NCBI RefSeq assembly: GCF_024748615.1
Contig: NZ_CP087168.1
Coordinates: forward strand, 2,852,001 to 2,916,000
Direction: 5' to 3'
From: Pseudomonas sp. B21-048
GTDB taxonomy: Bacteria > Pseudomonadota > Gammaproteobacteria > Pseudomonadales > Pseudomonadaceae
Length of the DNA: 64,000 nt
The notes beneath the pieces are model-generated. The model was given only the letters and a program-made list of their open reading frames with translations, made no database searches and had not been told where the DNA came from. Shown piece after piece: positions 1-54,400 of the stretch. Both the position numbers and the translations under genes were made by a program. The first letter of the stretch is position 1. Every line of letters begins with the position of its first letter.

Positions 1-1
1 G

Positions 2-901
2 ACGATTCGCCAACACACCCAGCGCCCGTTCAGCGTCAATTTTTTCTGCCATCAACCTCCGCCACCCGATGAGCAGCGCGCCCGGGACTGGAAGAACCTG
101 CTGGAACCGTACTATCGGGAATTGGGGGTCGATTTCGATGCACCAACGCCGGTATCCAATCGCGCGCCGTTCGATAATGCGGCCTGCGAAGTGCTCGAAG
201 AGTTTCGTCCTGAAGTCGTGAGTTTTCACTTCGGCTTGCCGGAAAAGTCGCTGCTGGATCGGGTAAAAGCCACTGGGGCGAAAATTCTCTCTTCGGCGAC
301 TACGGTCGAAGAAGCCATCTGGCTGGAGCAGCATGGTTGCGACGCAATCATTGCCATGGGTTACGAGGCTGGCGGTCATCGAGGGATGTTCCTCAGTGAT
401 GACCTGAGCAGCCAGGTGGGGACTTTCGCGCTAGTGCCACAAATCGTCGATGCGGTGAACGTGCCAGTGATAGCGGCGGGCGGAATTGGCGATGCGCGGG
501 GCGTCGCGGCGGCTTTTCTGCTGGGCGCTTCGGCGGTTCAGGTGGGTACGGCTTATTTGTTCACGCCGGAGGCCAAGGTCAGCGCTTCTCACCGCAAGGC
601 GTTGCGTACGGCCAAGGAAAGCGAGACGGCGGTCACCAACATTTTCACCGGGCGTCCGGCACGCGGGATTCTCAATCGGGTGATGCGTGAGCTGGGACCG
701 ATGAGCGCCAAAGCGCCGGCCTTCCCTTTGGCGGGCGGTGCGCTGATGCCATTGCGGGCCAAAGGGGAAGCGGATTTCAGCAGCCTTTGGGCCGGGCAGG
801 CGTTTACGCTGGGCGTTGAAATGACGTCGGCAGAGCTGACCCGGCGTTTGGCCGAGGAAGGACTAGCGAAGTTGGTCCGTCAGCAGGAAAGGTCCCTGTA
901 G
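2..901 (+). CDS. Nitronate monooxygenase, 5' truncated by window edge
   Basis: FMN-dependent oxidation of nitronates (propionate 3-nitronate type) to carbonyl compounds. The reading frame is open from base 2 to the TAG at 899-901, so the true start is upstream of the window. Visible family features in order: RPFSVNFFCH near the start, SSATTVEEA, then AGGHRG, which carries the family's catalytic histidine, then VPVIAAGGIGDARG, which matches the FMN-phosphate-binding glycine loop, and FTGRPARGI. These fit class I bacterial enzymes. It reads toward modA but ends in a palindrome before the mod promoter, so it is probably a separate transcript. Confidence 0.85.
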   Translation, partial: TIRQHTQRPFSVNFFCHQPPPPDEQRARDWKNLLEPYYRELGVDFDAPTPVSNRAPFDNAACEVLEEFRPEVVSFHFGLPEKSLLDRVKATGAKILSSATTVEEAIWLEQHGCDAIIAMGYEAGGHRGMFLSDDLSSQVGTFALVPQIVDAVNVPVIAAGGIGDARGVAAAFLLGASAVQVGTAYLFTPEAKVSASHRKALRTAKESETAVTNIFTGRPARGILNRVMRELGPMSAKAPAFPLAGGALMPLRAKGEADFSSLWAGQAFTLGVEMTSAELTRRLAEEGLAKLVRQQERSL

Positions 902-925
902 CAGCCTGCGGCAGCTGCTACAGGG
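894..925. repeat. REP-like palindrome, possible terminator
   Basis: Perfect 12-bp inverted repeat CCCTGTAGCAGC / GCTGCTACAGGG with an 8-bp loop. It overlaps the stop codon of the nitronate monooxygenase gene. No T-tract follows, so it looks more like a Pseudomonas REP-type element than a classical intrinsic terminator. It may still protect or end the upstream mRNA. Confidence 0.7.
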
Positions 926-935
926 GCGCGCATGA

Positions 936-1787
<852 letters not shown>

Positions 1788-2468
1788 ATGACGCTATCGA
1801 GTGCCGATTATTCCGCCATTTGGCTGACCCTGAAACTGGCGTCCCTGACGACCATGATCCTATTAGTCATCGGCACTCCAATTGCGTTATGGCTGTCGCG
1901 CACCCGTTCCTGGCTGCGCGGCCCGATCGGGGCGATCGTCGCCCTGCCCTTGGTGCTGCCGCCCACGGTGATTGGCTTTTACTTGTTGTTGGCACTCGGC
2001 CCGAACGGCTGGATCGGTCAGTTCACCCAATCGCTGGGGCTTGGCACCCTGACCTTCAGTTTTGCGGGGCTGGTGATCGGCTCGGTGCTGTATTCGATGC
2101 CGTTCGTGGTCCAACCACTGCAAAATGCTTTTTCCGCCATCGGCACTCGCCCACTGGAAGTGGCTGCCACCTTGCGCGCCAATCCCTTGGACACGTTTTT
2201 CAGCGTGATTGTGCCGCTGGCCCGCCCCGGCTTCATCACCGCAGCCATTCTCGGTTTCGCCCACACCGTCGGCGAATTCGGTGTGGTATTGATGATTGGC
2301 GGCAACATTCCCGACAAGACTCGCGTGGTCTCGGTGCAGATCTACGATCACGTCGAAGCCATGGAATATGCCCAGGCCCATTGGCTGGCCGGGTCGATGC
2401 TGGTGTTCTCGTTTGCGGTGTTGCTGGCGCTTTACTCCAGCCGAAAAACCAAAGCGGTCTGGAGCTGA
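1788..2468 (+). CDS. modB: Molybdate ABC transporter, inner-membrane permease
   Basis: Membrane channel of the molybdate importer. 226 aa with about five hydrophobic segments. The cytoplasmic coupling loop that contacts ModC is visible as the EAA-type motif [14 protein letters not shown] near residue 120. Length and motif fit ModB. The ATG is the first codon after the modA stop, so translation is probably coupled, and modC follows after 3 bp, making one modABC operon under the ModE-type operator. Confidence 0.95.
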
Positions 2469-2471
2469 TCG

Positions 2472-3551
2472 ATGATTCATGCGCGTTTGAAACTGAATTA
2501 CTCGGGATTCTCTCTGGATGTAGATCTGCAACTGCCCGGTCGCGGCGTGACGGCGCTTTACGGCCATTCCGGTTCGGGCAAAACCACCTGCCTGCGCTGC
2601 ATCGCCGGTCTGGAACAGGCCGAGCAAGGTTTTATCCAGGTCAATGACGAAGTCTGGCAGGACAGCGACAAACGGATTTTCGTCCCGCCGTATAAACGCG
2701 CTTTAGGTTACGTCTTCCAGGAAGCCAGCCTGTTCCCGCATTTATCGGTGCGGGCCAATCTGGAGTTCGGTCTCAGACGTATTCCCCACTCACAGCGCCG
2801 GGTCGACATGGTCCATGCCACGGAGTTGCTGGGGATCGCCCATTTGCTCGATCGTGATCCGCAGAACCTTTCTGGCGGTGAGCGCCAGCGGATCGGCATC
2901 GCTCGTGCCCTGCTCACCAGCCCGAAATTGTTGCTGATGGACGAACCGCTGGCGGCACTCGATACTCAGCGTAAAAACGAAATCCTGCCTTACCTGCAAC
3001 GGCTGCACGATGAGCTGGACATTCCCGTGCTGTACGTCAGCCATTCCCAGGATGAAGTCGCGCGGCTCGCCGATCACCTCGTACTGCTCGGCAACGGCAA
3101 GGCCCTGGCCAGCGGCCCCATCGGAGAAACCCTGGCCCGGCTCGATCTGCCGCTGGCGCTGGGCGATGACGCCGGCGTGGTGATCGAAGGGCACGTCAGC
3201 GCCTACGACGCTGATTATCAATTGTTGACCCTGCAACTGCCCAACACGGACCTGAGCATTCGGGTCGCCCATTCGCCGATGGCCGAAGGTCAGGCATTGC
3301 GCTGCAAGGTCCAGGCGCGGGATATCAGCCTGAGTCTGCAAGGCGTCGAGCAAAGCAGCATTCTCAACCGCCTGCCGGTCACGGTGATCAGTGAAATCGG
3401 CGCCGATAACGCCGCTCACGTACTGATCCGCCTGAACGCGGCCGGCACGCCGCTGTTGGCGCGGATCACACGCTATTCCCGGGATCAATTGGGCGTGCAC
3501 CCTGGACAGCAACTCTGGGCGCAGATCAAAGCGGTGGCGGTGCTGGCCTAA
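2472..3551 (+). CDS. modC: Molybdate ABC transporter, ATP-binding protein
   Basis: ATPase that drives molybdate import. 359 aa. Walker [10 protein letters not shown] at 31-39, Q-loop FQEASLFPH, signature LSGGERQR at 133-140, Walker B LLLMDEP at 153-159 and the H-loop VSHSQDE. The last ~110 residues resemble a Mop/TOBE domain, as in ModC proteins, where it binds molybdate and tunes activity. It is the last gene of the operon; no clear intrinsic terminator is visible in the 70 bp that follow. Confidence 0.95.
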
Positions 3552-3622
3552 AATCTGTCGACACTCTCCAGGCATTCTCCAGGCACCCCGGCATCGGCGC
3601 GCGGTCAATGGCTTAACGCCCC

Positions 3623-4687
3623 ATGATTCGTCGCCCGGGATTGCCTGCCATGCCAGATACCGCGTTGCCCGATGTTCTGCCGCCCGATCTGCATTACGTC
3701 GATGACAGCCAGCCCGGCATCACCCGCAAGCTCCTGCGCGGCAAGTTTTGCTACTTCGACCCGGCGGGTCAGCATATTAGCGATCCGGATGAAATCAAAC
3801 GCATCAACGCACTTGCGGTACCGCCTGCCTACACCGACGTGTGGATTTGCCCAGACCCGCGCGGTCATCTGCAAGCCACCGGCCGCGACGCTCGTGGCCG
3901 CAAGCAATACCGTTATCACCCACGCTGGCGAGAAGTGCGCGACGCCAATAAATACTCGCGCCTGCGGGAATTCGGCTTGGCGCTGCCAAAACTGCGCAAA
4001 AAACTCGAAGTGCTGCTGGCCGCACCCGGTTTCAGCCGCGACAAGGTCATGGCCACGGTGATTACCTTGCTCGATGCGACGCTCATTCGGGTCGGCAACA
4101 CTCAATACGCCCGGGACAATCGCTCCTACGGCCTGACGACTCTGCGCAGCCGTCATGTCGAGGTCAATGGCAGCGCGATCTTGTTTCAGTTTCGCGGCAA
4201 GAGCGGTATCGAGCACCAGATCACCCTAAAAGACCGGCGCCTGGCACGGATCATCAAGCGCTGCCTGGAACTCCCCGGGCAAAACCTCTTTCAATATCTG
4301 GACGAAAACGGCGAGCGGCACACCGTCAGTTCCTCCGACGTGAACGCCTACTTGCAGACGTTGACTGGCGCCGATTTCACCGCCAAGGATTACCGCACCT
4401 GGGCCGGCAGCGCGCTGGCCCTGGCGGTGCTGCGCGAGCTGCAGTGGGAATCGGAAGCCGATGCAAAGCGGCATGTGGTGGAAATGGTCAAGAATGTCGC
4501 TCGACAATTGGGTAATACTCCGGCGATTTGCCGCAAGTGCTATATCCACCCTGCGGTCGTCGATGGCTTCATGCAGGGCGCATTGTCCGAACTGCCGCGA
4601 TCGAGAGGGCGCAAAAGACTCAGGGCTGAAGAAGTCGCGCTGGCTGTGCTTCTGGAGAAACTCATCGAGACGGCCGAAATACCGTGA
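3623..4687 (+). CDS. DNA topoisomerase IB
   Basis: Relaxes supercoils by transient single-strand cleavage with a 3'-phosphotyrosyl link. 354 aa, typical for bacterial poxvirus-like enzymes. The active-site set is visible: Arg156 in LIRVGN, Lys193 in FRGKSG, Arg258 in KDYRTW, and nucleophile Tyr307 with His309 in CRKCYIHPAV. A start at 3650 (MPDTALPD) is also possible. It begins about 70 bp after modC on the same strand but is functionally unrelated to it. Confidence 0.93.
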   Translation: MIRRPGLPAMPDTALPDVLPPDLHYVDDSQPGITRKLLRGKFCYFDPAGQHISDPDEIKRINALAVPPAYTDVWICPDPRGHLQATGRDARGRKQYRYHPRWREVRDANKYSRLREFGLALPKLRKKLEVLLAAPGFSRDKVMATVITLLDATLIRVGNTQYARDNRSYGLTTLRSRHVEVNGSAILFQFRGKSGIEHQITLKDRRLARIIKRCLELPGQNLFQYLDENGERHTVSSSDVNAYLQTLTGADFTAKDYRTWAGSALALAVLRELQWESEADAKRHVVEMVKNVARQLGNTPAICRKCYIHPAVVDGFMQGALSELPRSRGRKRLRAEEVALAVLLEKLIETAEIP

Positions 4688-4756
4688 GACCTCTTCGAGG
4701 TGGACTAAACCGACGAACTGACCTGCCCATTCTGTGCACGATCGCAAAGGGCTTCT

Positions 4757-5014
4757 ATGCTTGATCTGAATACGAATAGCTTCGGTGACGCCATGGAAGA
4801 CATTTTCGTTGTGAAACGCTGCAACAAGATCATTATTCATGGCCGCCGGGCCGGAGAACCCGATCACCCACCACCCGACGCTGCCATCTGGTATCGCATC
4901 ACCGATACCCGCACTCGCGGCTTCATCGGTGACGGCTTCGATCTTGAAGAGGACGCCGCGCGCGAATGTCGGCGGCTTAACGCGGTCAGCTCACCGAAGT
5001 CCCGGCAGGCCTGA
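4757..5014 (+). CDS. Small conserved-looking hypothetical protein
   Basis: 85 aa, not recognised. Acidic C-terminal half with FIGDGFDLEEDAARECRRL, no signal peptide and no membrane segment. An internal ATG at 4793 (MEDIFVVKR) is a possible alternative start, because residues from there look more ordered. It sits alone between the topoisomerase and the convergent MarR gene. Base composition matches the surrounding core genes. Confidence 0.55.
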   Translation: MLDLNTNSFGDAMEDIFVVKRCNKIIIHGRRAGEPDHPPPDAAIWYRITDTRTRGFIGDGFDLEEDAARECRRLNAVSSPKSRQA

Positions 5015-5078
5015 AGCCGGTTGCTGTCATTTTGGGCGCCCCGCAGAATTCGGAATGACTGCCCCAATCCTGGCGCTT

Positions 5079-5555
5079 CTAACTATTGGACGAGTTCATC
5101 CCTGCCAGTCGTCCGAGTAGTGCTGATGCCGCCTCGATCTGTTCCGATGCAACCCATTCGGTTGCATCTTGTGCGACAGTGCGAACCGACGTAACTGCGT
5201 GGCCCAAGAGCTGACGCCCCGAATCTGTGAGTGTTGCGTAGCCCACTCGTGCATCCCTCGGGTCAGGCTGTCGTGATACCAGGCCCAATTTTTCCAGGGG
5301 AAGCAAACTGCGAGTGACACCTGAGGCGGTCAAGCCCAGCCGCTCAGCCAAGTCCACTCGACGCAGCCTGCCACCCGGCGCGCGCTCAAGGTAATAAAGG
5401 GTCATGAAATCGGCAAAACTGAGCCCGTGCAAGCCGGACAACACGTTATCAAGGCGCCGCGTCAAATTGGCATAGGCGCGCGACAATCTGATGCAAAACT
5501 CAAGACCTGCGTCCGCACTGCCATTGTTTTCATCTGTATTCACGACGGTGCTCAT
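5079..5555 (-). CDS. MarR-family transcriptional regulator
   Basis: Winged-helix regulator that typically represses nearby genes until a small ligand binds. 158 aa. The HTH region reads RVDLAERLGLTASGVTRSLLPLEKLGLV, followed by the wing DPRDARVGYATLTDSGRQLL, the classic MarR signature. Its ATG overlaps the TGA of the upstream gene by 4 bp, so the two are translationally coupled. The coupled kinase-like gene is the obvious candidate partner, but no operator was identified. Confidence 0.85.
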   Translation of the reverse strand: MSTVVNTDENNGSADAGLEFCIRLSRAYANLTRRLDNVLSGLHGLSFADFMTLYYLERAPGGRLRRVDLAERLGLTASGVTRSLLPLEKLGLVSRQPDPRDARVGYATLTDSGRQLLGHAVTSVRTVAQDATEWVASEQIEAASALLGRLAGMNSSNS

Positions 5556-7771: not shown

Positions 7772-7795
7772 TGGTGCCCGAAGCCGGGGTCGAAC
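7772..7795 (-). other. Left attachment-site remnant (tRNA-Leu 3' end fragment)
   Basis: TGGTGCCCGAAGCCGG is identical to the right-end sequence at 25536-25551. After two mismatches TCGAAC matches again. It reads as the reverse complement of a tRNA 3' end with CCA. It is the expected short displaced copy left at the integrase-distal end when an element inserts into a tRNA gene. The copy is too short and too diverged to be part of a functional tRNA. Confidence 0.65.
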
Positions 7796-7850: not shown

Positions 7851-7872
7851 TATACCTAAACGTATACCTAAA
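7851..7872 (+). repeat. Integrase arm-type site, left end
   Basis: Two tandem copies of TATACCTAAA separated by CG. An identical 22-bp block in the same orientation lies at 25404-25425, just upstream of the integrase gene. Paired repeats inside both ends of a tyrosine-recombinase element are what arm-binding sites look like. Confidence 0.65.
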
Positions 7873-8579
7873 ACGGGAAGTACCCTTATCTTCTCCGCCT
7901 CCAGCAGGGAACCTATCATGCCGACGCCCTCCCTCCCGTTTTGCCGTCTCCGGGTGACGCTTGTGATCATCATTACTCTCCCCGTTTTGGGATGGAAGAG
8001 ATGGAAAAATAGTTTGGGCGTGGGGGCGCCGATACTGCGAACGCTAATACTTTTGACGCAGCACCTCCAGCATTCCCCCAAATTCGTCCAAGACGGCGAT
8101 TTCCTAAAAAACTACGAATTAATGATCGAAACGGGCAGGGATCGGTCCTTCGGGCGAGGACTCCAGACTTTTGACCGCCCCCTACCCAATGGCTTTATCG
8201 AGCAGCACCAACTGCCCTAGTTGCGTTGCCCGATGGCGAGTTACGGATAAACAACCAATCAGGCACGCCCTGCCGTATGCAACCCTGCGCCGGGTCTCGA
8301 ATTACCCGCTAGGGGCGATTACAATCCGTCGTCGGAGTCCGCATTGATTATTGACTGAGAACGGCCAGAAGCAGGCATCCAGGTCAGCCAACTAACTGGA
8401 AGCTGCCGTAGGAATCCATTGTTATGAGCAGCCCTTACGTATAAAGGATCAATCGCGGCGGAACTCACGCAAAACCCCGTTGAGTTCTCGGTTTGCCACT
8501 CTACACGCCAGTGAGCAACCGTAAGCGCTCGCCGTCTCGAAACCTATATGAATTGGGAGATAGAGAAAGACCTACTGTG
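7873..8579. other. Gap at the left end of the element
   Basis: About 700 bp with no coding sequence I can support. Open frames here are short, lack ribosome sites and have no protein-like composition. It may hold decayed element DNA; no repeat or RNA gene was recognised. Confidence 0.5.
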
Positions 8580-9527
8580 CTAGCACTCTCTCAAATCAGC
8601 CACAAGCTGGTATTGGTCGATAGCTGTTCGAAGCATTTCTCGTACCAATTGTTCCATAAAGCTGTTAACCGTTTGAAGATCAATCAATTCCGGCGCATCG
8701 ATTCTAATATCGTAAATATTGCCATGCGCTATGCTGCTGCGCAGTGCATATAGTTTTTCCCATAATTTTTTGATGCCAAGAGGTTTAAAAAATTTTGTGT
8801 TTTGGGTGTCAAAACCAATGTAATTACATAAAAGCTCAGTTTTTCTCTGAAGTTGTTTTTGTATAGACAAAGCTGCTCCACTGGCATCCTGCCTAGTCAA
8901 CAAACATTCTAGAACAGCGAAGTAGGAGAGCGTTCTTAGCTCCGAAAAAAATGGCAAAGTATCAATATCATGATAGATAGTTATGGCCCGATTGATTCGA
9001 CGATCAACCGGCTTGGAATTGTCATTTATTTTAACGTAATAACCTCGCAACTCCTGAAGTTCATTCAATGGAATCGAAATTGAGCCTTTGTGAGTGAAAT
9101 CCTGTAGCAAATCCAGTTCGTAACTGTTAAATCCCTGGTGCATAGATACTGCTTTCTTGTTCGAGTCTTTAGCGTAGCCTGCGTGACCACCAACCCTGAA
9201 CTGAAACCTGGTTAATTTGCCAGCCATATTTATGGATTGAATATTTCTATTATACTCTGTTGTTTCAACCACCAATAGTTGAGAACTTTCAGGCGGCACG
9301 TATCTATTGTGAAAACTCCCTGGCGTTGTTTCCACTTTTTTCACTTCCGAGCCATGATCGACAATGAAAGTTGAAAATTGACCTGCAGCTTTCAAGAGGA
9401 ACTTATAGTGCTCTGCTTCGAAATGTGTTGCCCGCCTAATTACTGCACTCTCGCTTATTTCGAACGGCAACAAGTCATCAGCAATTTGTAGGTTATTTAG
9501 AACGATTGCAAACCCCGTATCATTCAT
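8580..9527 (-). CDS. Apea-like HEPN-domain protein
   Basis: 315 aa. The C-terminal third is a helical bundle ending in ALRSSIAHGN, with Arg263-x4-His268. This R-x4-6-H motif is the RNase active site of HEPN proteins and is seen with this flanking pattern in the Apea-like group. The N-terminal 200 residues are unassigned; WEKLY precedes the motif. HEPN proteins of this group occur as effectors or sensors in anti-phage loci. It is the leftmost cargo gene, same strand as the CHAT gene but separated from it by 456 bp holding one copy of the island palindrome. A+T-rich compared with the core genes, which suggests transfer. Confidence 0.7.
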   Translation of the reverse strand: MNDTGFAIVLNNLQIADDLLPFEISESAVIRRATHFEAEHYKFLLKAAGQFSTFIVDHGSEVKKVETTPGSFHNRYVPPESSQLLVVETTEYNRNIQSINMAGKLTRFQFRVGGHAGYAKDSNKKAVSMHQGFNSYELDLLQDFTHKGSISIPLNELQELRGYYVKINDNSKPVDRRINRAITIYHDIDTLPFFSELRTLSYFAVLECLLTRQDASGAALSIQKQLQRKTELLCNYIGFDTQNTKFFKPLGIKKLWEKLYALRSSIAHGNIYDIRIDAPELIDLQTVNSFMEQLVREMLRTAIDQYQLVADLREC

Positions 9528-9983
9528 TGAATTTGACCTTCTGTGTATAGATCTTGGAATAGGCCGAAGCCAAATTTTGCGCAGAATGACGTAACTGTAC
9601 TCAATTTTGAATCTGCTGCGTGTCGTAGCTTCGCGACAGTCAGCAATCGGCCAATAGCAGACGCTGACAACGCGATAGCTGGGGCACTATGGGGAGGCGA
9701 CTGAAAACGGTGATGCTGGCGCTACTCAACGCCAATGCCGAGAGCGGGTGACCAAGCAACCCAGCGAGAGGGCTATGGCGTAAGGTTAGTCGAGGGAGGG
9801 GCATGGTCTGATCTTCCAATCCAGGGTGGTTACCCCACGAAACTATGGTTTTTTGGAATTACACTAAGTCTTGAGCTAACGCAAATATCAATAATCTGGT
9901 TACCGTCCCCCTTGAACAAGCTAGGTATTCTATCTCGCCCGTAAGGAGCTGAATCCCCGCAGCTCCTGCGTGCTGACTGCCTC
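9528..9983. other. Gap with palindrome-family fragment
   Basis: 456 bp with no gene I can support. GACAGTCAGCAATCGGCCAA at about 9635-9654 is a half copy of the palindromic family that recurs between cargo genes at 13457, 14449, 15583 and 17022. It separates the HEPN gene from the PLD-CHAT pair. Confidence 0.6.
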
Positions 9984-11828
9984 TTAGGAGTATACTGAGA
10001 TACTCCCCAAGTTTTTGAACTGACGCATATCAAATTCTTTATCTTTGAGACACCTTTCTAGGGTATCGAAGGACTCTGCCAAACGTTTAGAGTTAGTAAT
10101 TATTGAGTTGTTTTCTTGGTCTAATGCCTCGTAAATCATCCTGGCAACATTTATAGGTGTGTTTCGCCGAGAAAAATATATTGCCAACATGCCGAAGCAT
10201 GCAGCATAAAGCGGGTTCACTGGCCACATATGGGATATGATGGTTTGATTGCCAGCAGCTAATGAAGCAGCAATCCCCCTTGAGTAAGGATTGCAACTTA
10301 TCTCCGTTGCCGCTCCATCGCAAATGTTCAAAATTATGTTCCGATTTGTACTTTTGCTATGTCGACACAACCATAGCTTTCCGACGGTGATCGTTGACCC
10401 TTCATTGAAGAAAATTTCATCTTCAATAGCCTTGCCCCAGTGGTTGTACTCGCCATGCGCCGATATATATATTACGTCGTGTTGCTCTGATGCAAGAATA
10501 TCGACAAAGAAATCTTCTTGGGGGTCTACATAAATCTCTGCCTCATCGCCAAATTCCGCAATAATAAATTCATGTTCTAACGTATAAGTGTGTGTATGGG
10601 TTGAAAGAAAGAAAACGAAACGCTTATCGTCCGGATCATCCAAGACTTCTTGGTGGCTGACGGATATGAGTGGAGCATTCTTCCCGAGGCTGAATAAAGC
10701 TGATTGCAAAGGAAAATTATGAGAAGGGAGAATCGTGAGAGAGTGAAATTCTCCATACAAAGGGTCATTCAGACCAAAGTGAGCAATTACAGTTCCTCTA
10801 AGTTCACTCAAATCATCGTCAACGGGCGGGGCTCCGCCTCGATCAGTATCGATGAACGCTCCATTGTCATCGAATGCCCCAAGAAGGGTAACATATGTGT
10901 TGGTTGCCCGATTGCACGCGTTTATTAGCTTGCTGTAACGCTCGTAGTTACCAAGCTCTTCAAATACGACTTGGCCTGATCTTGACAATATCATCAGTTT
11001 ACTACCGTTTGGCAGCAAGTAACCATGACCTACGCGAGAAACCCCTAGTCCAGTCACGTTTTTAAGCGAGGACACTAAAGAAAACAGAGCGTCATAATTG
11101 TTGTTTTCGTAAAGCTTCCCCAATAAAGGTTTCAGGAAGTCACAATGCCCTTTTTGAATTATTTCGCGCATTTGAGGGCCACTCAAGTAGCGTTTTAATT
11201 CACTTAGGACGCCATATTCCGATTTAATGTGGCAGTAGTAATTTATAAAGGCTGAGGCAGCATTTGCTCCAGTAAAGTGCCGACGGTTTTTATAAGCTCG
11301 TTTAATGGATGGAAGAAAATCAGGCTGCCCCATGTTAGATGCAGTGCAAAGAAAGAGCTCTCTAAGTCTCTTGGCGCGCCTATGCTCCAAGTGGGTTTTT
11401 TTCAAACTATCTAAATAGTCTGGGTAGTGCTCTCGCCCATAAAAGTAATCCCAGGCTACTAGCTGACACATTGCTTCGACAATTGCGGATTCATCTTTAA
11501 TCCTAGCCAAGTAAATGATTGCAGTGGCGCTGTTCCATGTGTCGCGTGCCACCTCTGGCATCGCACCTAGGCTCCGGAAATACAAATATATTACCGCTAC
11601 CCATTCTACAAAAATTTCTGGTTCAGCCCGAAAATAACTAACGATGGGTTCTTGAAAAATCATCTGGACGTGATGTGGCGAAACGTCTACTCGCCCCCCA
11701 GAATATTCTTGGCCACTGAAAAACCCAAAAACGTGCGTGCCAACTCCTTGGATATCATTCCTATGGGCGGAGTTCACAGCGTCATAAATTTTTTGGATAT
11801 AAAACTCGGGTGTATTGAATAGCACCAT
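9984..11828 (-). CDS. CHAT-domain (caspase-like) cysteine protease
   Basis: 614 aa. The C-terminal ~200 residues form a CHAT domain: catalytic His458 in YISAHGEYN and catalytic Cys503 in NICDGA, followed by SRGIAASLAAGNQTIISHMWPV, the usual helix-strand after the cysteine. The first ~350 residues are mostly helical, possibly TPR-like, and probably sense or hold the protease off. CHAT proteases are death effectors in several bacterial immune systems, cleaving a partner such as gasdermin; no gasdermin-like gene is nearby. It starts 66 bp after the PLD-family gene on the same strand, so the two probably form an operon. A+T-rich. Confidence 0.8.
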   Translation of the reverse strand: MVLFNTPEFYIQKIYDAVNSAHRNDIQGVGTHVFGFFSGQEYSGGRVDVSPHHVQMIFQEPIVSYFRAEPEIFVEWVAVIYLYFRSLGAMPEVARDTWNSATAIIYLARIKDESAIVEAMCQLVAWDYFYGREHYPDYLDSLKKTHLEHRRAKRLRELFLCTASNMGQPDFLPSIKRAYKNRRHFTGANAASAFINYYCHIKSEYGVLSELKRYLSGPQMREIIQKGHCDFLKPLLGKLYENNNYDALFSLVSSLKNVTGLGVSRVGHGYLLPNGSKLMILSRSGQVVFEELGNYERYSKLINACNRATNTYVTLLGAFDDNGAFIDTDRGGAPPVDDDLSELRGTVIAHFGLNDPLYGEFHSLTILPSHNFPLQSALFSLGKNAPLISVSHQEVLDDPDDKRFVFFLSTHTHTYTLEHEFIIAEFGDEAEIYVDPQEDFFVDILASEQHDVIYISAHGEYNHWGKAIEDEIFFNEGSTITVGKLWLCRHSKSTNRNIILNICDGAATEISCNPYSRGIAASLAAGNQTIISHMWPVNPLYAACFGMLAIYFSRRNTPINVARMIYEALDQENNSIITNSKRLAESFDTLERCLKDKEFDMRQFKNLGSISVYS

Positions 11829-11894
11829 GAACGTAGGCTCGGTAATTTTCGCTGGAAACTAAGTATGCCAGTCACTCGCGACAGCTGGCGTGCT

Positions 11895-13106
11895 TTAGCG
11901 CATTGAGGGATCGTAGCAAATGGCATCTAGCATCGCGGCTCTACCCATCCAAAGCTGCTGCTCGAACCCCTCGCTGGGCATTTCTTCCTGCCACCAAGGC
12001 ATCAGCTGCATCGGCGCCACGACGCGATCCCAGTAGTTGTCCAGGTTGAACGTCGAAAAAGACGTTGCGAACACATCAGCCAGTTGCCGCTTATTGGGAT
12101 TGCAGATACAGACGAAGTAGTCCGGTCTTTTAATCGCCAGCAGGCGGGTACCAAAGCCAATCCAAGTGGCCCTAGCCGTAGGGATACGCTGAAAAACTTC
12201 GACGAATGCCTCGTAGTGCCGGCGTTTGACAGGGCCCACTAGCGGGATTTTATCGAGGGCTTGAGACAGGAGAGGGGCGTGTTCTCTGAGTACTCTCTTG
12301 AAGCTGCCGTGGGCGCTCATCTGGCCAAAGTATCCCCAGTCCACGCCATCGAGCTCGGTAGGCTGCAGAAGTCCTGTTACGCACTGTTGCTCCGTGACGG
12401 TGAACTCCTGAACGGTGCGGCCGCTTGCGAACAGTTGCCTCGCCCTGGCGAGGAGCTCAAGTCGCATATCCTTGGCATTGTCCTCCTTCACCAACTGAAC
12501 AAACTGCTCCCACTCCGTCCCATTGAGATCACTGTGGAGTGAGGAGGAGGCAGTGTGTCTGGGTTTTTTGACCCACGTGAAATTGTCGAGGTCATCAAGT
12601 GCGTCCTGGTTGAGCTTTTTGTTGGCCGTATAGGACTCAATGAGTGGATCGTTTATGTCCAGGGCTCGGGCCGCCTGCTGCTTGATGAAGGTGAAGAACG
12701 ATTGGAGGTTGGGGTCGAGATGGTCACCGCTGAGGAAGACGCCGGCCTCGATGTTCTTGTTCAAGCCAGCATTGGTGCAGTTGGCGCTGCCCACGTAGAT
12801 GGTGACCTTCTTCTCATGTCGGAAGGCGTAAAGCTTGGGGTGAAACAGAGGCCCGGAGTCGGGCAGCAGAACCTTGGCCTGGGGGATGTCGACGCACATC
12901 TGCAAGCAGAGTGGATCAGTGATGTACATGTGAGTGCCGATGACGAGGCTCTCAAGCTTCGCCTTGGCTTTAATCGCAGCCTCAAACGCTTTATTGGGCG
13001 TAATCCATGCGCTGGCCCAAGCAAACGACTGGCACTGAGCTATGAGCTGCTGGAGCTTTTTCCCGGTCTCTTTGGAGCCAACAACAGAGGTGATTTCGAC
13101 AGACAT
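11895..13106 (-). CDS. Phospholipase-D-family (HKD) nuclease-like protein
   Basis: 403 aa from MSVEITSVVG; an in-frame extension to 13304 was rejected because it is low-complexity and lacks a ribosome site. One HKD-type half is visible: LFHPKLYAF (His89, Lys91) then YVGSANCTNAGL at 104-115. A single motif implies a dimeric active site, as in PLD-type restriction nucleases. The ~200 C-terminal residues are unassigned and rich in tryptophan. DNA cleavage or binding is the likely role, by family. It is the upstream partner of the CHAT protease; palindromic repeats bound the pair on both sides. Confidence 0.7.
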   Translation of the reverse strand: MSVEITSVVGSKETGKKLQQLIAQCQSFAWASAWITPNKAFEAAIKAKAKLESLVIGTHMYITDPLCLQMCVDIPQAKVLLPDSGPLFHPKLYAFRHEKKVTIYVGSANCTNAGLNKNIEAGVFLSGDHLDPNLQSFFTFIKQQAARALDINDPLIESYTANKKLNQDALDDLDNFTWVKKPRHTASSSLHSDLNGTEWEQFVQLVKEDNAKDMRLELLARARQLFASGRTVQEFTVTEQQCVTGLLQPTELDGVDWGYFGQMSAHGSFKRVLREHAPLLSQALDKIPLVGPVKRRHYEAFVEVFQRIPTARATWIGFGTRLLAIKRPDYFVCICNPNKRQLADVFATSFSTFNLDNYWDRVVAPMQLMPWWQEEMPSEGFEQQLWMGRAAMLDAICYDPSMR

Positions 13107-13639
13107 CGTAGGGCGTTCCTTGCGGGCTATGTGCAGCGGTAAGTTAACCGTATTCATGCCAACTGCATCGAGTGGCAAAATAAAAAACGCGGTAGCAGGG
13201 TTAGGTTCGCCTAGGGCCATCTCGTAGTTCTCGTCGTCTCGACGTGCCGGCACACAGCGCCGGGACAGTCTCGGAGTCGTTGATCCGAGAAATAATGCGG
13301 ACATCGCATGTACGGAGGCGGAGGCAGCTAGGGAGGAGCCCAGTAGGGTTTTGCTAGCTTAATTCGGCTCCGTTGATGATGAGTTCCTTGATTACCTTTA
13401 GCACTACCTAGGCTTCGGTAAAGGCCACTTAGGAGTGTTAGCCTGCATCGGAGAAAGTCTGCTTTTGGCCGTCCCCTGCCTGTCGTGACCGGCTGGAGGC
13501 GACCGATTATTAACGGTGGCTACAGGCAGCAATCGGCCAAATTTTTGGACACGGGCTATTCTTTGATCTGCTTGAGTAAGTACATAAACCTTACTACTCC
13601 CTTTGTTGCCGCACCTGAATCGCCATGCCCGGTGGTGAA
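13107..13639. other. Divergent promoter gap with palindrome repeat
   Basis: 533 bp between the leftward PLD gene and the rightward UDG-like gene. It holds the repeat at 13457-13541 and presumably both promoters. No credible gene. Confidence 0.5.
13457..13541. repeat. Island palindromic repeat, copy 2
   Basis: Arms GTCTGCTTTTGGCCG (13457-13471) and GGCAGCAATCGGCCAAA (13525-13541), with CTGCCTGTCGTGACCGGCTG between. Same family as the clearer copy at 14449-14502. Confidence 0.75.
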
Positions 13640-14299
13640 ATGAAGCCTTGTAGTGAACTGCTGACAATTATCGAACCCGCCTATGCGCCTTGCAGAAACT
13701 TTGCTGACGCATGCAGCTCTCTCGTTTGGGCACCTGACAAAGGGCACGTTCCTCGTGGCTTTCTCGGAGCGACTGGCACCCTTGGGGAGGTGGAACTGGT
13801 GCTTGTGTTTGCAGAACCGGGCGATCCGCATGATGTAGAAAAGGACGAAACGATGGATACCTCACTGGAGTACACCTACCAATGCATGAAGCTTGGAACG
13901 GACCTGTTTCATCGCAATGTTCGGTACATTTTGAATCTTTGCTTTCCTGAAGACTCATTCGACAGCCAGCTCCGCAAAACATGGATGACAGAATCACTCT
14001 TATGTTCTGCACCAAAGGAAGGTGGCTCAGTGAAGGCATCATCTTGGCGAGCTTGCACTAATTGCTACTTGAAACCGCAGTTGGATTTGCTTTCTCAGGC
14101 ATTTGTAGTCGCGTTGGGCAGCAAGGCCAAGTCCCGCTTGAAGTCCATTGGCATACCATTTTTTCCAGCTGGTGCCGCAGCCCCACCAGGCTGCAATTTT
14201 TTAGGTGTAAGAAATTCGTGGAACGAGGCAGCGATGATTTTACGTGAGCGCCGCATCACTAAACGCTCCCGTTATTCGTCAAAGACAGATTCTGCATAA
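13640..14299 (+). CDS. Uracil-DNA-glycosylase-like protein
   Basis: 219 aa from MKPCSELL (a start at 13625 is also possible). Features that recall family 4 UDGs: an N-terminal cysteine pair (CRNFADAC), a GEVELVLVFAEPGDP block in the place of the usual GEAPG motif, a cysteine pair CTNCYL followed by KPQLDLL, and VVALGSKA, the typical strand-turn of this fold. The catalytic motif is altered, so activity on uracil is uncertain. It could excise modified bases or act as a decoy. It stands alone, between two palindrome copies, on the opposite strand from its neighbours. Confidence 0.5.
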   Translation: MKPCSELLTIIEPAYAPCRNFADACSSLVWAPDKGHVPRGFLGATGTLGEVELVLVFAEPGDPHDVEKDETMDTSLEYTYQCMKLGTDLFHRNVRYILNLCFPEDSFDSQLRKTWMTESLLCSAPKEGGSVKASSWRACTNCYLKPQLDLLSQAFVVALGSKAKSRLKSIGIPFFPAGAAAPPGCNFLGVRNSWNEAAMILRERRITKRSRYSSKTDSA

Positions 14300-14448
14300 G
14301 TTGATTACGGGCTGTCGCAGTCGAATCTTGAAAGACTGCCAGCTATCGGCACCAACTATTCCCGATCGGTACCCACTCAGGGTAAAAATCTGGAGTCGCA
14401 GAGAAGCACGCTGGCGAGTTTATGCCTGTCAGGACTGACCGGAAAGGG

Positions 14449-14502
14449 CCGCTTCTGGCCGATTTCTGACTGTTATGACAGGCAGAAATCGGCCAAAAGC
14501 GG
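14449..14502. repeat. Island palindromic repeat, best copy
   Basis: Arms CCGCTTCTGGCCGATTTCTG and its near-perfect complement CAGAAATCGGCCAAAAGCGG, one mismatch in 20, with a loop of about 14 bp. Fragments of the same sequence lie at 9635, 13457, 15583 and 17022, each in a gap between cargo genes. Could act as a bidirectional terminator or as a recombination target. Confidence 0.85.
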
Positions 14503-14546
14503 ACTGTGCAGAGCATCACCCATACAGCCGTTAATTGATGTGTAGT

Positions 14547-15473
14547 CTAAACAAGACTAACCAGCTCGACTTTCTTAATTCTTTGAGCCGAGTGAACAGT
14601 ATCGAACTCGCGATCGCTCGTTTGCGGTGTGATGCCGTCAACAACTTCAATGCCAAGAAGATTCCTCAGCGGTATCAGTGATTGAGGAAATGTGGATTCC
14701 AATACAAGGATCGCTCTCGCGATTTGAGGGCGTGCTTCAGCGAGCAGCACTGCGTCCATAACAGCTCTGTATTTAACGCATTGGAATAGCCCCCTTACAA
14801 TGTCAGATTCCGCAGAGACTGCAGATTTGACCTCCGCAGCTACCCAAACCGCTTTGCTATTGAACGAGACGTCAAGGCTGTCACCGGATGGTAACCGGTA
14901 TTCGGTCACTCCCACTGGGATGTTAGAGCTGAGTCCGATGACGCGCGGGTTACATGCAACATAGTCTTTGAGCGCCTTATGATCCTCGCTCTCTCCAGCG
15001 CCGTAGCCCTCACTGGCTTTTTTTAAGACAGGTGAAAAGTCGCACGTTACTGGCTCAAGCGAAAGCGCTTTAAGAACTTCGTCCCATCGAGAAAAGGAAA
15101 AGACGTGCGCAAGTTCTGCCTCAACAATGACACGCTTCTGGCGAAGCGGAAGTGCTGAAAAGTCCTCTTTTTTCACGAGAAACCAACCAATGCCCTCTCC
15201 TGGTAGGCCGGTGTTTTTGTTGATCACGAGACACTGAAGAGGTGGAACCTTGACCTTCCATATCTTTGAGAGACGTTCTAACGATTGGCCAATGCTCCCA
15301 AGAACATAATTAAGGTTGCGCGGGTTAGGCATCCCCAGTTCTTCGGCAAGATCGGAATAAAAAACTGGGACACCCGCCTTCGCTTGACGAACAAGCAGAG
15401 GAAGCGCGGCGCGGGCACGTATCTGGTAGGCCTTATCACCTGAAATTGGCTCAGAAATTTTCGCGGTACTCAT
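14547..15473 (-). CDS. PD-(D/E)XK nuclease-fold protein
   Basis: 308 aa. Start fixed by AAGGAGA five bases before the ATG at 15473. The N-terminal ~90 residues resemble a small helical DNA-binding region (YSDLAEELGMPNPRNLNYVLG). The core motif is LPSGDSLDVSF (Asp201) followed by VAAEVKS (Glu214, Lys216), then a helix DIVRGLFQCVKYRAVMD. That is the arrangement of restriction-endonuclease-like folds. No methyltransferase is adjacent, so it may target modified DNA or act alone. Confidence 0.6.
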   Translation of the reverse strand: MSTAKISEPISGDKAYQIRARAALPLLVRQAKAGVPVFYSDLAEELGMPNPRNLNYVLGSIGQSLERLSKIWKVKVPPLQCLVINKNTGLPGEGIGWFLVKKEDFSALPLRQKRVIVEAELAHVFSFSRWDEVLKALSLEPVTCDFSPVLKKASEGYGAGESEDHKALKDYVACNPRVIGLSSNIPVGVTEYRLPSGDSLDVSFNSKAVWVAAEVKSAVSAESDIVRGLFQCVKYRAVMDAVLLAEARPQIARAILVLESTFPQSLIPLRNLLGIEVVDGITPQTSDREFDTVHSAQRIKKVELVSLV

Positions 15474-15582
15474 TTCTCTCCTTGAATATATAACTGATTG
15501 GAAGTCATGTCTCGGAAGACAGTTATGAGTGTATACAATTATTCGGGATCGAGAGTAGCCTATGGCCATCATTTGCAGCAAG

Positions 15583-15638
15583 GTCCGCCTTGGGTCGTTT
15601 TTTTGCCAGTCGCGACCGGCTGAAAACCGCCCAAAGCT
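15583..15638. repeat. Island palindromic repeat, degenerate copy
   Basis: Arms GTCCGCCTTGGGTCG and AACCGCCCAAAGC around GCCAGTCGCGACCGGCTG. Recognisable as the same family but more diverged. It lies upstream of the PD-(D/E)XK gene, in the divergent gap before the second HEPN gene. Confidence 0.65.
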
Positions 15639-15753
15639 GCCGCTCAGCATCAACACCGTGTGTCTGTACCTGATTTTATACGGATGTTAGAGTGACCCAG
15701 TCCCATACAATAAACCCACCCCCTCGCACACACCTAAGGAAGCAGGTAAAAAT

Positions 15754-16743
15754 ATGGCGGAAACATTTAGAAGCTTTATCATGCTAACAAATGCCAACGT
15801 CGCAGGAAAATACATATACAGAGATGAATTTCAGATATTACCTGCGCCTGACCACTTCCCTCGGGCGCCTTACTCTGAAGCGCACCACCCCTGCCTCCTA
15901 GAAGTAAAATACAACTTCAACCCTGACTCAAACAAGACAATGCCTGACCAAACAGAGGTTCCCGACTGGATACAAAGAAAAGACCATGAAAAAAAATTAA
16001 TTCACGAAATAGCGCGCTTATTTGACGTATTTTCTTTTTCAAAATTCGTCTTTACACAAGACCAACATAGCTGGACTATTCGAACAGACGACAACATTGC
16101 AATTGAACCAGAGTGGCGTCAACTCTCATACTTCGTTCGCGGACATCAGCATGAAATCAGCGAGTTCACAAACTCTCCAGTCGCGCAAATTGATGAAATA
16201 AAAACGGCAAAATTCTACAACTTCGGTGCAAGATATACCGGCTCTGATTTTTCCGTCCCTGACTTATTCAGCGACATTCTGGATGCTTACTACAGCCTAG
16301 ACCAAGACAACAAGAACGCATTTTTAAAGTCAGCAACCTTATTCAATAATGCAATAAGAATCAAGCCAATATCACCCTCTATATCATTTGCCTGCTTTGT
16401 CTCCTCAATAGAAACGCTTGTTGATCACCTCCATAAAGGCGTTAAAATTGAAAAATGCAAAGAATGCAGTGCGCCGCGTTACGCCGTTACAAGAAAATTC
16501 ACAGACTTTCTTAAAAAATATAGCTCCGAATCAGATGAGGTAATAAGATTTTATAAACAATCGTATAGCCAGCGCTCAAAAATACTTCATGCAGGCGCTC
16601 TTTTTACAGGCGAACATATACCGGTAGAGTGGGCTGAAAGTGACTGGGAGGCCTACCATATGAACTCAGGAATTGAGCGAATCTGCCGCATCGCGTTTAC
16701 CAACTGGATACTGGAGAAACACAGCTTTCCGCTCTCCCCTTGA
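15754..16743 (+). CDS. Second Apea-like HEPN-domain protein
   Basis: 329 aa. HEPN motif QRSKILHAG (Arg274-x4-His279) near the C-terminus, preceded by a CxxC pair (Cys235, Cys238) and a helical stretch AVTRKFTDFLKKY, an arrangement typical of Apea-like HEPN proteins. The N-terminal half is unassigned. Little similarity by eye to the HEPN protein at 8580 outside the motif, so it is not a recent duplicate. Strongly A+T-rich codon use. AGGAAGCAGG precedes the ATG. Confidence 0.65.
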   Translation: MAETFRSFIMLTNANVAGKYIYRDEFQILPAPDHFPRAPYSEAHHPCLLEVKYNFNPDSNKTMPDQTEVPDWIQRKDHEKKLIHEIARLFDVFSFSKFVFTQDQHSWTIRTDDNIAIEPEWRQLSYFVRGHQHEISEFTNSPVAQIDEIKTAKFYNFGARYTGSDFSVPDLFSDILDAYYSLDQDNKNAFLKSATLFNNAIRIKPISPSISFACFVSSIETLVDHLHKGVKIEKCKECSAPRYAVTRKFTDFLKKYSSESDEVIRFYKQSYSQRSKILHAGALFTGEHIPVEWAESDWEAYHMNSGIERICRIAFTNWILEKHSFPLSP

Positions 16744-16839
16744 ATCATGGTATTCGACTGGACATCAGGGGCAGACCAAGGAGTTGAAGTTGAGTGGCTA
16801 GTTCATAGCCGTTTTCTGTCTGTCGCAAACGTCTGCTTT

Positions 16840-17007
16840 GGGTCCAGGCTGTCTGAAAACGTTTTTGAGCGCTACGGGTGCCCAAAACAGGACTGAAAAT
16901 CGCGTTTCTACGTAAAATCCGGGTCTGCTAACCATCCGATAAATTTCAGATTTCGCATAGAAGCACGCACTTTAATTTTTGATCAGGGTTTTCACACAGC
17001 CTGGGTC
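16840..17007. mobile_element. MITE-like element, copy A
   Basis: About 168 bp with imperfect terminal inverted repeats: left GGTCCAGGCTGTCTGAAAAC, right complement of GTTTTCACACAGCCTGG. The interior shares GAAAATCGCGTT, CTACGTAAA and TCTGCT-like blocks with the element at 19398-19566 in the opposite orientation. No coding capacity. The ends look like transposase recognition sites. Confidence 0.65.
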
Positions 17008-17021
17008 GGTTGCTGCCCTTG

Positions 17022-17047
17022 GTGACAGGCAGAAATCGGCCAAAAGC
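17022..17047. repeat. Island palindromic repeat, half copy
   Basis: GACAGGCAGAAATCGGCCAA followed by AAGC, identical over this length to the right arm of the best copy at 14449-14502. The matching left arm is missing, apparently displaced by the MITE-like element just before it. The 490-bp gap 16744-17233 has no credible gene. Confidence 0.7.
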
Positions 17048-17233
17048 AATGGGATGGACTCCTCCTCACCTCGGTATCTTGAGTGCCAGACTGAAGGTGC
17101 GAACCACAGTCAACCGTGAGAAGGAGTCCACACATGAAGCTTACCCGTATGCAAAATTATTTCCTGGCCCACTCAAGCGATGAGTTGGATAAAACGGCTC
17201 ATGCGAGATATGCATGAGCCTGATATACCAGTC

Positions 17234-19243
17234 TCATTTCAGTGCGGAATTGATCGCGTTAATGAGACTCGCACAACCCTCAATTTCGTTTTCAGTCAAA
17301 TCTGACGCCGAGTGATCGCGCGACCACTTCAAGAAAGCCTTGGCTAGCTTGTACTTCGAGAATTCCTTACCAATGTGCTTCTGGAATGTATCTATGATGG
17401 GTTTGTCGGGAGTGCTTGCTATGGCTGACGTGATGTCCCAGCCAAACTCAGACTTCGCGATTTCAATGAGTGTGTCCCTAAGTAGATCTTCGATTTCGGC
17501 CTTATCGATCTTTGGTACCGAGTAATCTGAGGTGCGAAGAATCCTTTTGTTGCTGAGTCGGTGTACTAGCACTTCTTGTTGAGCAGCCTGGTTACCCGCA
17601 TTATCAGAGTCAAGAAGTGCAGCTACCTTCAGATTGTGCGACGTTAGGATCGTCGCGAAATACACTACCTTGCTGGCGGTATTGGCGGGAACGAGTGAGA
17701 TCTTGTCATTCAGTGCCGCGTTCCCTCCATCTTTGAGCAGGCCAGAAATAGCCTCGATGTACCAATAGTCAGTCAACCCTTCGAGAATAAGATTACGTTG
17801 GTTTGCAAACAGGCTCTGGGCCAAGTCGTAGCCAAGCGCCTCCTGTAGCGGCAGGAGTGCTGCTGGGTCGGTGGAGGACACAGTCGTATGTACCTTAGTG
17901 CCGATTTTCCTATCCGTCAGCTCCACCACCCTAACCATGTCAAGCTCATCCGGGCCCACTAAAAATGGCGAATGGGTTGAATATATTGTTTGGTTTTCAT
18001 CGGCGAGCATTGAAATGGTTTTTCTGAACTCTCGCTGCTTCAAAGCATGTAGGCTCACACCGGGCTCATCCAGTAGAAGGATGGTGTTTTTGTGTTTTCC
18101 TTTTGCCTCGGCAAAGAAGACGATGAAGAACGAGACCAGCCATTGAAAGCCCTCGGAGCGCTGGTCGAGCTCAACTTCGACACCAATGTTGTCTTCAACC
18201 ACAACTTTCAGATACTGACCGTCTGCAGTCAGCTTTAGCTTGCTAGCTTCCGCCTTGTTTTCATCCGGATTCCACACTTTAATAATCTGCTGAGTAAGTT
18301 CTACGCTTGCGGCATTTAGCTGGTAGCTGCGTTTATCGAGCTTCTCTCGATATTGCTCAAGATCAGTTGTTGTATGACTAGGATCGGAGGCTCTTCCGAG
18401 ATCAGAGAGCTCTTTTGCAGTGAAACCGAGAAGCTTAAGCAAGCAGTTGTTACCGTAATCATATGCATCATCATCCAAGATATTTGACTCCAAGCGTCTA
18501 GCGAGGCTGTCCAAATGGATGATTGGCTTAACGCGGAAATAATTGCTATAGAGAACAAAGGTTGGCTTATTTTTATCAAGATAAGCTAAGAAGTTTTTCA
18601 GCTCAATAGCATAATCTAAAATTCCATCTATCTTTTCCCAGCGCTCATTCTCTTTCGCATCGTCTTCGTCAATGGCTGAAAGTTTTTCTTCCAGCCATTG
18701 TTTAAGCACGGAAGCATCCGATGAAAGTGGTCTATGAGGAAACCAAGATTTCGTGATTTTGTTGAGACTCTCGGTGTGAACCTTAACTAATCCGTCAGTA
18801 ATACCCCTGTCGAGATGGGCGACAAGCCTTATTAGGTCATTCTTGATCTCTGAGTATGTTGGTAGTTGAACATTATTAAGGCTGTGTGTGGCTGAATTAT
18901 CTAAGTAGCGTGTAAAACTATAGGTGAATAATCTTGTTTTTATTTGATTCGGGGCATGCTCAAGATCAGAGGTATCGAGGGTGAAAGTCCCGGTGACCAC
19001 GGGCACATCTTCAGGATCGATCTCCCCGCGGCTAATTTTAGTATATATAGATCTTGGATAATCTCGCAGGGGATTAAACTTTGCTATATCACTGGGGGCA
19101 TTTATTTGCTGAACTGCTTGAAGAATTGCTGTTTTGCCTGCCTCGTTGGGGCCGACTAGTATTGTTTTAAGGTGTTCGACCTCAAATTCGCCGGTATCTA
19201 AAATGCTCCGATAGTTTTGAACTCGCAACTTACTCAAACGCAT
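17234..19243 (-). CDS. OLD-family ATPase/TOPRIM nuclease
   Basis: 669 aa. N-terminal SMC/ABC-like ATPase: Walker A GPNEAGKT at 31-38, Walker B ILLLDEP at 388-394, H-loop STHSPF about 422-427. C-terminal TOPRIM domain: Glu488 in LILEGLTDYWY and Asp545/Asp547 in LLDSDNAG. This is the layout of overcoming-lysogenization-defect nucleases, which block phages after sensing recombination inhibition or other cues. No UvrD-like helicase follows, so it is a stand-alone (class 1-like) OLD rather than a Gabija pair. Flanked on both sides by inverted copies of the same ~168-bp element. Confidence 0.88.
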   Translation of the reverse strand: MRLSKLRVQNYRSILDTGEFEVEHLKTILVGPNEAGKTAILQAVQQINAPSDIAKFNPLRDYPRSIYTKISRGEIDPEDVPVVTGTFTLDTSDLEHAPNQIKTRLFTYSFTRYLDNSATHSLNNVQLPTYSEIKNDLIRLVAHLDRGITDGLVKVHTESLNKITKSWFPHRPLSSDASVLKQWLEEKLSAIDEDDAKENERWEKIDGILDYAIELKNFLAYLDKNKPTFVLYSNYFRVKPIIHLDSLARRLESNILDDDAYDYGNNCLLKLLGFTAKELSDLGRASDPSHTTTDLEQYREKLDKRSYQLNAASVELTQQIIKVWNPDENKAEASKLKLTADGQYLKVVVEDNIGVEVELDQRSEGFQWLVSFFIVFFAEAKGKHKNTILLLDEPGVSLHALKQREFRKTISMLADENQTIYSTHSPFLVGPDELDMVRVVELTDRKIGTKVHTTVSSTDPAALLPLQEALGYDLAQSLFANQRNLILEGLTDYWYIEAISGLLKDGGNAALNDKISLVPANTASKVVYFATILTSHNLKVAALLDSDNAGNQAAQQEVLVHRLSNKRILRTSDYSVPKIDKAEIEDLLRDTLIEIAKSEFGWDITSAIASTPDKPIIDTFQKHIGKEFSKYKLAKAFLKWSRDHSASDLTENEIEGCASLINAINSALK

Positions 19244-23405: not shown

Positions 23406-24065
23406 TTAGAGGCTTATTTCCCCCCTTTTTGCACGTCGGATCAATTTTTCATATTCGACAATGTCCGCTGGCACCTCGACTCCTGCAGCAACGAGAAGCT
23501 CTCGGGCGAGCTCTGCTGCTTTGCGTTTGGTCATCTTCGCTAAGGAAGACTGCCGTAGCTTGTCCGCGGTATCAGCCAACAAATCATCTCGCGGATACTT
23601 CGGCTTCACGCCACGAATAGTTGGAGCCGCCTCCAACTTCTGCTCGGTAATGTCCAACACATCGGACACCATGGCGGCCTTCGCCATAAGGTCAGAAAGC
23701 AAGCCACCGCTGAAAAAGCACCCATGGCTTCGCCAGCAGGCGTCGTTGATGTAACCCTCGGCGAAAGGAGGGAGATTGTTTAGCCCCCGTAACGTTTCCT
23801 GAAGATGCAGTTGCACCTGCCGCACATGGCGAAGTTCTTCGTGGCGCGCGGGGCCTTTTTCCGTTTCGCGGATGACCGCTCTGTAGGACCCAAGCCTTTC
23901 CTTGAACCATTCCTGAAGATCGCCGTCGTGATGTCCGGCCAAGTCAGCGATAATTGCCCGCGCAGCATCAGACAGGCTTTCATCGACCAAATCACCTGTA
24001 CCCCATTCGGGTTGATTGTCGAATACTGGAAGTGCCTTTGATCGCTTGCCCCTTTTTATTTCCAT
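23406..24065 (-). CDS. Hypothetical protein of element backbone
   Basis: 219 aa, not recognised. Charged and helical, with a lysine/arginine-rich N-terminus (MEIKRGKRSK) and C-terminus (KMTKRKAAELAREL). It overlaps the integrase 3' end by 10 bp and has its own purine-rich ribosome site (AGAGGGGG), so it is co-expressed with the integrase. No catalytic motif. Confidence 0.55.
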   Translation of the reverse strand: MEIKRGKRSKALPVFDNQPEWGTGDLVDESLSDAARAIIADLAGHHDGDLQEWFKERLGSYRAVIRETEKGPARHEELRHVRQVQLHLQETLRGLNNLPPFAEGYINDACWRSHGCFFSGGLLSDLMAKAAMVSDVLDITEQKLEAAPTIRGVKPKYPRDDLLADTADKLRQSSLAKMTKRKAAELARELLVAAGVEVPADIVEYEKLIRRAKRGEISL

Positions 24066-25403: not shown

Positions 25404-25425
25404 TATACCTAAACGTATACCTAAA
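25404..25425 (+). repeat. Integrase arm-type site, right end
   Basis: Identical to the 22-bp block at 7851-7872: two copies of TATACCTAAA separated by CG. It sits about 30 bp upstream of the integrase start, where Int binding could also repress its own promoter. Confidence 0.65.
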
Positions 25426-25535: not shown

Positions 25536-25594
25536 TGGTGCCCGAAGCCGGAATCGAACCGGCACGCCCTTACGAGCGGGGGATTTTAAGTCCC
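25536..25594 (-). pseudogene. 3' half of tRNA-Leu(UAA), right attachment site
   Basis: On the minus strand this gives the anticodon loop CTTAAAA with UAA anticodon, a long variable arm as in leucine tRNAs, a good T-arm (GCCGG TTCGATT CCGGC) and a CCA 3' end. To the right of 25594 the expected D-arm and acceptor 5' strand are not found, so the tRNA is not intact. The first 16 bp plus a nearby 6 bp repeat at 7772-7795. I infer this is attR with a tRNA half carried or left by the element. Confidence 0.7.
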
Positions 25595-54178: not shown

Positions 54179-54400
54179 CTGAATAGATGCGCTCGTCTTT
54201 CCGAGCAGTCTGCCAAAGGCCTTCTCAATGTCGACGTCCCTTTGCATCGATCTCGCTGATCCAGTCTCGCGCCACCCCGGAAGCAATGTGAGGTCAGAGT
54301 GCACGGGCTGCCGGTGTTGATTCCGTACGTCGCACTATCCGGCTATCGACGTCCAGGCGTTCCCGAGGGCCTTCCTGGCTACAGGTAAAATCGAGGCAAC

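Follow-up and report, generated by a model that had tools for sequence, protein, structure and literature searches.

Two adjacent genes of Pseudomonas sp. B21-048 raise the question of whether a nuclease-like protein and a protease encoded side by side form a single anti-phage system, or are separate defence genes that travel together. They lie in a stretch of 64,000 nucleotides (nt) of contig NZ_CP087168.1 (assembly GCF_024748615.1, positions 2,852,001 to 2,916,000), referred to here as the window and used for all coordinates below. Both are on the minus strand: the first (11895..13106, with its ATG at 13106 and an open frame extending upstream as far as 13304) encodes a nuclease-like protein of 403 amino acids (aa) with an HKD motif and a PLD fold, and the second (9984..11828), encoding a 614-aa CHAT protease, follows after a 66-nt intergenic spacer (11829..11894). 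A preliminary description of the locus had placed both open reading frames, the gap and the residues His89/Lys91, GSANCT, His458 and Cys503 correctly, and had proposed a mobile two-gene defence system with an unnamed effector. The reading that we favour, with a probability of about 60%, is that the pair consists of two separate defence genes, a protease of the Borvo type and an independent accessory HKD nuclease, carried in one mobile cassette.

The CHAT protein is, judged by its sequence, a recognisable member of Borvo (BovA), a known one-gene anti-phage protease family reportedly introduced by Millman et al. in 2022, in line with the citation given in PMC10952713. The PADLOC BovA model matches it over profile positions 80-710 of 711 (265 bits, E 4.6e-79), and a nearly full-length match to the profile is found in all 20 rows of an alignment comprising the window protein and 19 of the 24 homologues found, so the effector regarded as unnamed does have a name. 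His458, within SAHG, and Cys503, within NICDGA, are invariant in the same 20 rows. The catalytic dyad claimed earlier is to that extent sound; the Pfam CHAT model (PF12770), however, has no match to the window protein or elsewhere in its own genome, and is weak across the aligned set (5/20 rows at E <=0.1, best 0.0041). Since this model fails on the window protein, it is the BovA profile, together with the invariant His/Cys pair and the predicted fold, that justifies the CHAT label. NCBIfam likewise gives no match to the protein (P0002), and searches of PDB sequences found no CHAT relative. The predicted structure comprises helices at residues ~1-255 and a protease fold at ~355-614, His458 and Cys503 being placed in strands 452-460 and 496-503, and Foldseek finds a resemblance to Csx29 and separase. 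The likeness to these proteins (Csx29/Craspase TPR-CHAT and separase) lies in the architecture of helical repeats plus CHAT and in the predicted fold, whereas sequence identity is ~10% and no type III-E effector is seen beside the CHAT gene here.

What has been published on Borvo is cited here from excerpts of the papers concerned, none of which names the target of its protease. A CHAT protease is entered under Borvo (PMC10952713), and its original form is one BovA gene, while a 'Borvo-like' form has two BovA genes instead of one and acts on one streptococcal phage genus (PMC12322248). Mutations in phage DNA polymerase permit escape from this poorly understood system, the activation of which is called unclear (PMC11348598), and Borvo is counted among the systems triggered by phage replication components (PMC10732053). 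It is included in Pseudomonas island hotspots (PMC12629846) and receives mention only in the excerpts of PMC11514479 and PMC10286901. The window locus resembles Borvo in the nearly full-length profile match, the CHAT His/Cys pair, the helical N-terminal half and the presence of other defence-type genes nearby, and differs in having an HKD nuclease gene 66 nt upstream, where the original form is a single BovA gene.

The upstream protein, a putative DNA-cutting enzyme, carries the HxK...GSxN motif and, in its predicted structure, the PLD fold of PLD-family nucleases. It has a single HKD motif (HPK at 89-91, GSANCT at 106), and H89/K91 and G106/S107/N109 are invariant in 30/30 rows of an alignment of the window protein with 29 of 101 homologues found; the catalytic motifs of both proteins, as first described, are thus borne out, and relatives of the PLD protein at identities as low as 27% still carry them. 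Its predicted PLD domain (residues ~1-160) resembles SauUSI, Nuc and BfiI, and is followed by a predicted helical C-terminal part (~195-403). The score of Pfam PLDc_2 is 25.6 bits, slightly below the 27-bit cut-off. SauUSI, the NgoAVII R-protein, BfiI and Nuc are its closest known counterparts among PLD-family nucleases; the window protein has 403 aa against 953 for SauUSI, and its C-terminal part is assigned to no fold. Among named defence systems, ZacB of Azaca gives a weak PLD-domain match (E 2.7e-11) confined to 298-428 of 586 profile positions, which excludes a full-length ZacB, and neither ZacA nor ZacC is among the matches listed for the seven proteins at 8580-19243 (for the protein at 17234-19243, the best 25 of 114). 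DrmC of DISARM matches weakly over part of its profile (E 8e-07), with 26 bits against a curated cut-off of 133, and is rejected as well. In keeping with the preliminary description, searches of open-licence PubMed Central papers turned up no named pair of PLD and CHAT proteins, two fungal papers among the hits being left unread.

On the favoured reading, the helical N-terminal half of BovA (~1-255) would sense a phage product, for which the excerpted Borvo literature makes phage DNA polymerase the candidate. Sensing would unlock the C-terminal His458/Cys503 protease, and cleavage of a target protein would then halt either the phage or its host cell. As a nuclease of the SauUSI/Nuc/BfiI type, the upstream protein would act independently and presumably as a dimer, its C-terminal part perhaps selecting the target, and neither protein would need the other. 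Nuc and BfiI have one HKD motif per chain and are dimeric.

The pair is mobile as a unit. A two-gene cassette (9881..13486, minus strand) is common to the window and Pseudomonas sp. GD04091 (locus L018, 4355-7948), where its flanks are unrelated: the two sequences share a single alignment of 3606 columns at 92% identity, covering both genes and short margins (~3.6 kb), and the remainder of L018 has no match to the window. A control stretch of chromosome within 942-4687, the one stretch tested, is 73% identical in GD04091. Because the cassette is so much more similar than this stretch, it appears to have been transferred between the two genomes after their hosts diverged, and the pair, on this sequence comparison, has moved as one unit at least once. 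Mobility had been proposed earlier from flanking repeats, and is here supported by other evidence. No second copy of the cassette was found in the window's own genome.

Within the cassette, the two genes bear signs of separate histories. The PLD gene has a GC content of 55.6% (70.5% at third codon positions, GC3), against 43.4% (GC3 43.2%) for the CHAT gene, and synonymous divergence (dS) between the two cassettes is 0.116 for PLD (bootstrap 0.07-0.167) and 0.317 for CHAT (0.257-0.402), the ranges being non-overlapping. Both genes are under purifying selection, with ratios of non-synonymous divergence (dN) to dS of 0.22 for PLD and 0.18 for CHAT. In the CHAT gene, dN is 0.093 in residues 62-310 versus 0.027 in residues 311-614, and across the aligned set mean pairwise identity is 43% for residues 62-260 versus 55% for 355-614. 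This pattern would fit rapid evolution of the sensing half together with constraint on the protease half; since dS, too, is elevated in residues 62-310 (0.433), a recombined segment is an alternative.

Conserved adjacency, the test that the preliminary description had itself named, largely fails. A BovA-like neighbour is found in the available sequence at 2/30 full-length or nearly full-length PLD-family loci, those of the window and GD04091, and, of the 28/30 with sequence available downstream, the pair is visible in 2. These 30 loci comprise seven from Pseudomonas (window, L018, G120, G016, G052, G105 and G282), 12 from viral contigs (L021-L032), nine from plasmids (L052-L055 and L057-L061) and two from other members of the class (G490 and G506); the interrupted G105 and L054 are counted, L023 ends at a contig edge, and L030 and L085 have almost no downstream sequence. 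Partial PLD-domain matches (for example L010, L011, L013-L015, L017, L033-L042, L086-L112 and L129) stand outside the count, as do repeated loci of one place and five of 14 plasmid records (H4-H6, H13 and H14), which repeat H3/H12. Conversely, a PLD gene is present at 2/8 BovA-like loci, or 2/4 of the full-length ones (window, L018, L019 and L020), the other four (L048, L049, L056 and L114) being partial or decayed; CHAT genes beyond profile A1 at E 1e-3 would escape this count. BovA stands without an adjoining PLD gene in L019 and L020, and no full-length PLD relative was found elsewhere in those two genomes. Both the nearest cluster of PLD proteins (95%) and a close one of CHAT proteins (88%) trace to GD04091, and therefore represent one case rather than two. 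What stands of the earlier reading as a whole is its motifs, its defence company and its mobility; the unnamed effector does not, and the conserved pairing largely does not.

In a genus sample at E 0.001, the PLD protein (P0001) has matches in 12/298 genomes and the CHAT protein (P0002) in 3/298, several of the matches being partial. BovA is rare in the genus: profile A1 (E 1e-10) finds it in 4/398 sampled genomes, at full length only in the window's own. Weak matches to both the PLD and the CHAT profile, at the level of domains, occur in four class genomes (G329, G572, G600 and G640), on different contigs. Phage records hold no relative of either protein, viral contigs yield 22 PLD matches and no confirmed BovA relative, and plasmids yield two weak partial CHAT matches, one of them in Priestia (H2). 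No PLD-BovA fusion occurs among the 24 clusters listed, all of 614-649 aa. By eye, L044, L045 and L046 have an AddB-like gene and a UvrD/AddA-like gene of 1071 aa immediately ahead of a PLD-family gene, of which L050 has a fragment; the arrangement, present in four Pseudomonas genomes, may be a three-gene module.

These counts bear most directly on the alternative that the locus is a two-gene variant of Borvo, in which the PLD protein serves as sensor or second effector and works only with this subclade of BovA. The two genes share a strand with 66 nt between them, and the pair, its order and its spacer are kept intact in two Pseudomonas genomes whose core DNA has diverged. Against this, 28/30 PLD loci show no BovA-like gene in the available sequence and the motifs persist in PLD relatives with as little as 27% identity, L019 and L020 each have a BovA relative on its own, the two genes differ in base composition and dS, and fusions are absent from the listed clusters; we consider this alternative doubtful. 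A second alternative is that the genes are chance neighbours, the PLD gene being a plasmid or island maintenance nuclease outside defence that hitchhiked in the transfer. Some PLD relatives do lie on plasmids amid ordinary plasmid and metabolic genes, but others, including plasmid members, are near genes annotated as UvrD helicase, McrC, restriction endonuclease or ABC-three-component genes, or near UvrD/AddAB-like genes recognised by eye; such company resembles that of defence genes and makes this alternative improbable. Least probable is that BovA cuts the linker between the two domains of the PLD protein, releasing or killing the nuclease, as Csx29 does with Csx30: a type III-E CHAT protease cleaves Csx30 (excerpt of PMC10952713) and residues 186-189 of the PLD model, a low-confidence stretch (predicted local distance difference test score, pLDDT, <50), lie between the two parts, but this stretch varies across an aligned PLD family whose loci mostly have no nearby BovA-like gene and is therefore not a pair-specific feature. 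The broader proposal, in which HKD nuclease and BovA form one transferable anti-phage module in this Pseudomonas subclade with the nuclease as partner, second effector or substrate, is accordingly a tentative one, since it draws most of its weight from the doubtful partner or second-effector version and little from the substrate version.

Several observations weigh against two separate defence genes in one cassette. Both genes and a 65/66-identical spacer were kept in the transfer, as a functional link would also give, and full-length BovA loci with context number only four, two of them paired. Membership of BovA is assigned by profile rather than by comparison with an experimentally tested BovA protein, the top Foldseek chain is the anti-sigma factor DdvA (E 4.0e-08), narrowly above Csx29, and residues 505-517, adjoining Cys503, have pLDDT <50 in the CHAT model.

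With the family assignment, an apparent new system becomes a testable case of the known, poorly understood Borvo, and offers a Borvo gene that moves in nature and has a candidate partner next to it. If the nuclease were partner or substrate, Borvo would gain a mechanism; if it were neither, the locus would be an example of defence genes bundled in one transferable cassette.

The repeats flanking the pair were found on each side, as first described, with copies at the 5′ edge of the cassette (13456..13540) and a copy of the same repeat (9635..9662, matched at 9637) ~220 nt beyond its 3′ edge. The window holds five matches against a shuffled mean of 0.04, and CAGNCAGNAATCGGCCAA at <=1 mismatch has seven copies in the genome, five of them in the window. 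Repeats lie between island modules at 8363, 9637, 13456-13540, 14449-14502, 16830, 17026 and 19389, those at 8363, 16830 and 19389 being looser matches given without a chance estimate; a near-perfect 54-nt palindrome occupies 14449-14502. The short core GGCCAAAAGCRGAC (<=1 mismatch allowed) is matched 13 times in the genome, 6/13 of these at C1:3747568-3766041, and a reversed control 21 times, so the core is not enriched alone, while the longer repeat pattern has 22 matches versus 2 in the control. Other Pseudomonas loci (L043, L044 and L049) carry related repeats. The idea that the repeats are recombination sites is weakened by the lack of enrichment of the short core, by the related repeats elsewhere and by the 3′ edge of the cassette: the 5′ edge (13486) does fall inside the repeats, but 9881 is ~220 nt away from the nearest copy.

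The pair belongs to an accessory-gene run (8580-19243) with a GC content of 40-55%, against 59% in window 1-5500. Its proposed defence company is supported by an OLD-family ATPase with a Toprim region (17234-19243; Old/GajA/AriA-like in PADLOC) and by two proteins without significant Pfam matches (8580-9527 and 15754-16743), the RSSIAH and RSKILH motifs of which we take to be of the HEPN RxxxxH type; DzbB matches the first of these proteins weakly (E 0.0088). A possible uracil-DNA glycosylase-like protein is encoded at 13625-14299 (match not significant, E 0.13). Promoter- and terminator-like sites show no excess over shuffles, and ARAGORN finds no tRNA in the window. A 22-nt perfect direct repeat (7851-7872 and 25404-25425) brackets the accessory region and an integrase-like gene named by eye (24056-25375), which suggests one integrated element with the repeats as possible attachment sites; a second, 16-nt repeat occurs at 7772-7787 and 25536-25551. 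Further along, a Proteo-phage-1 RNA (Rfam RF03044) lies at 54306-54384, inside what by eye is an apparent prophage.
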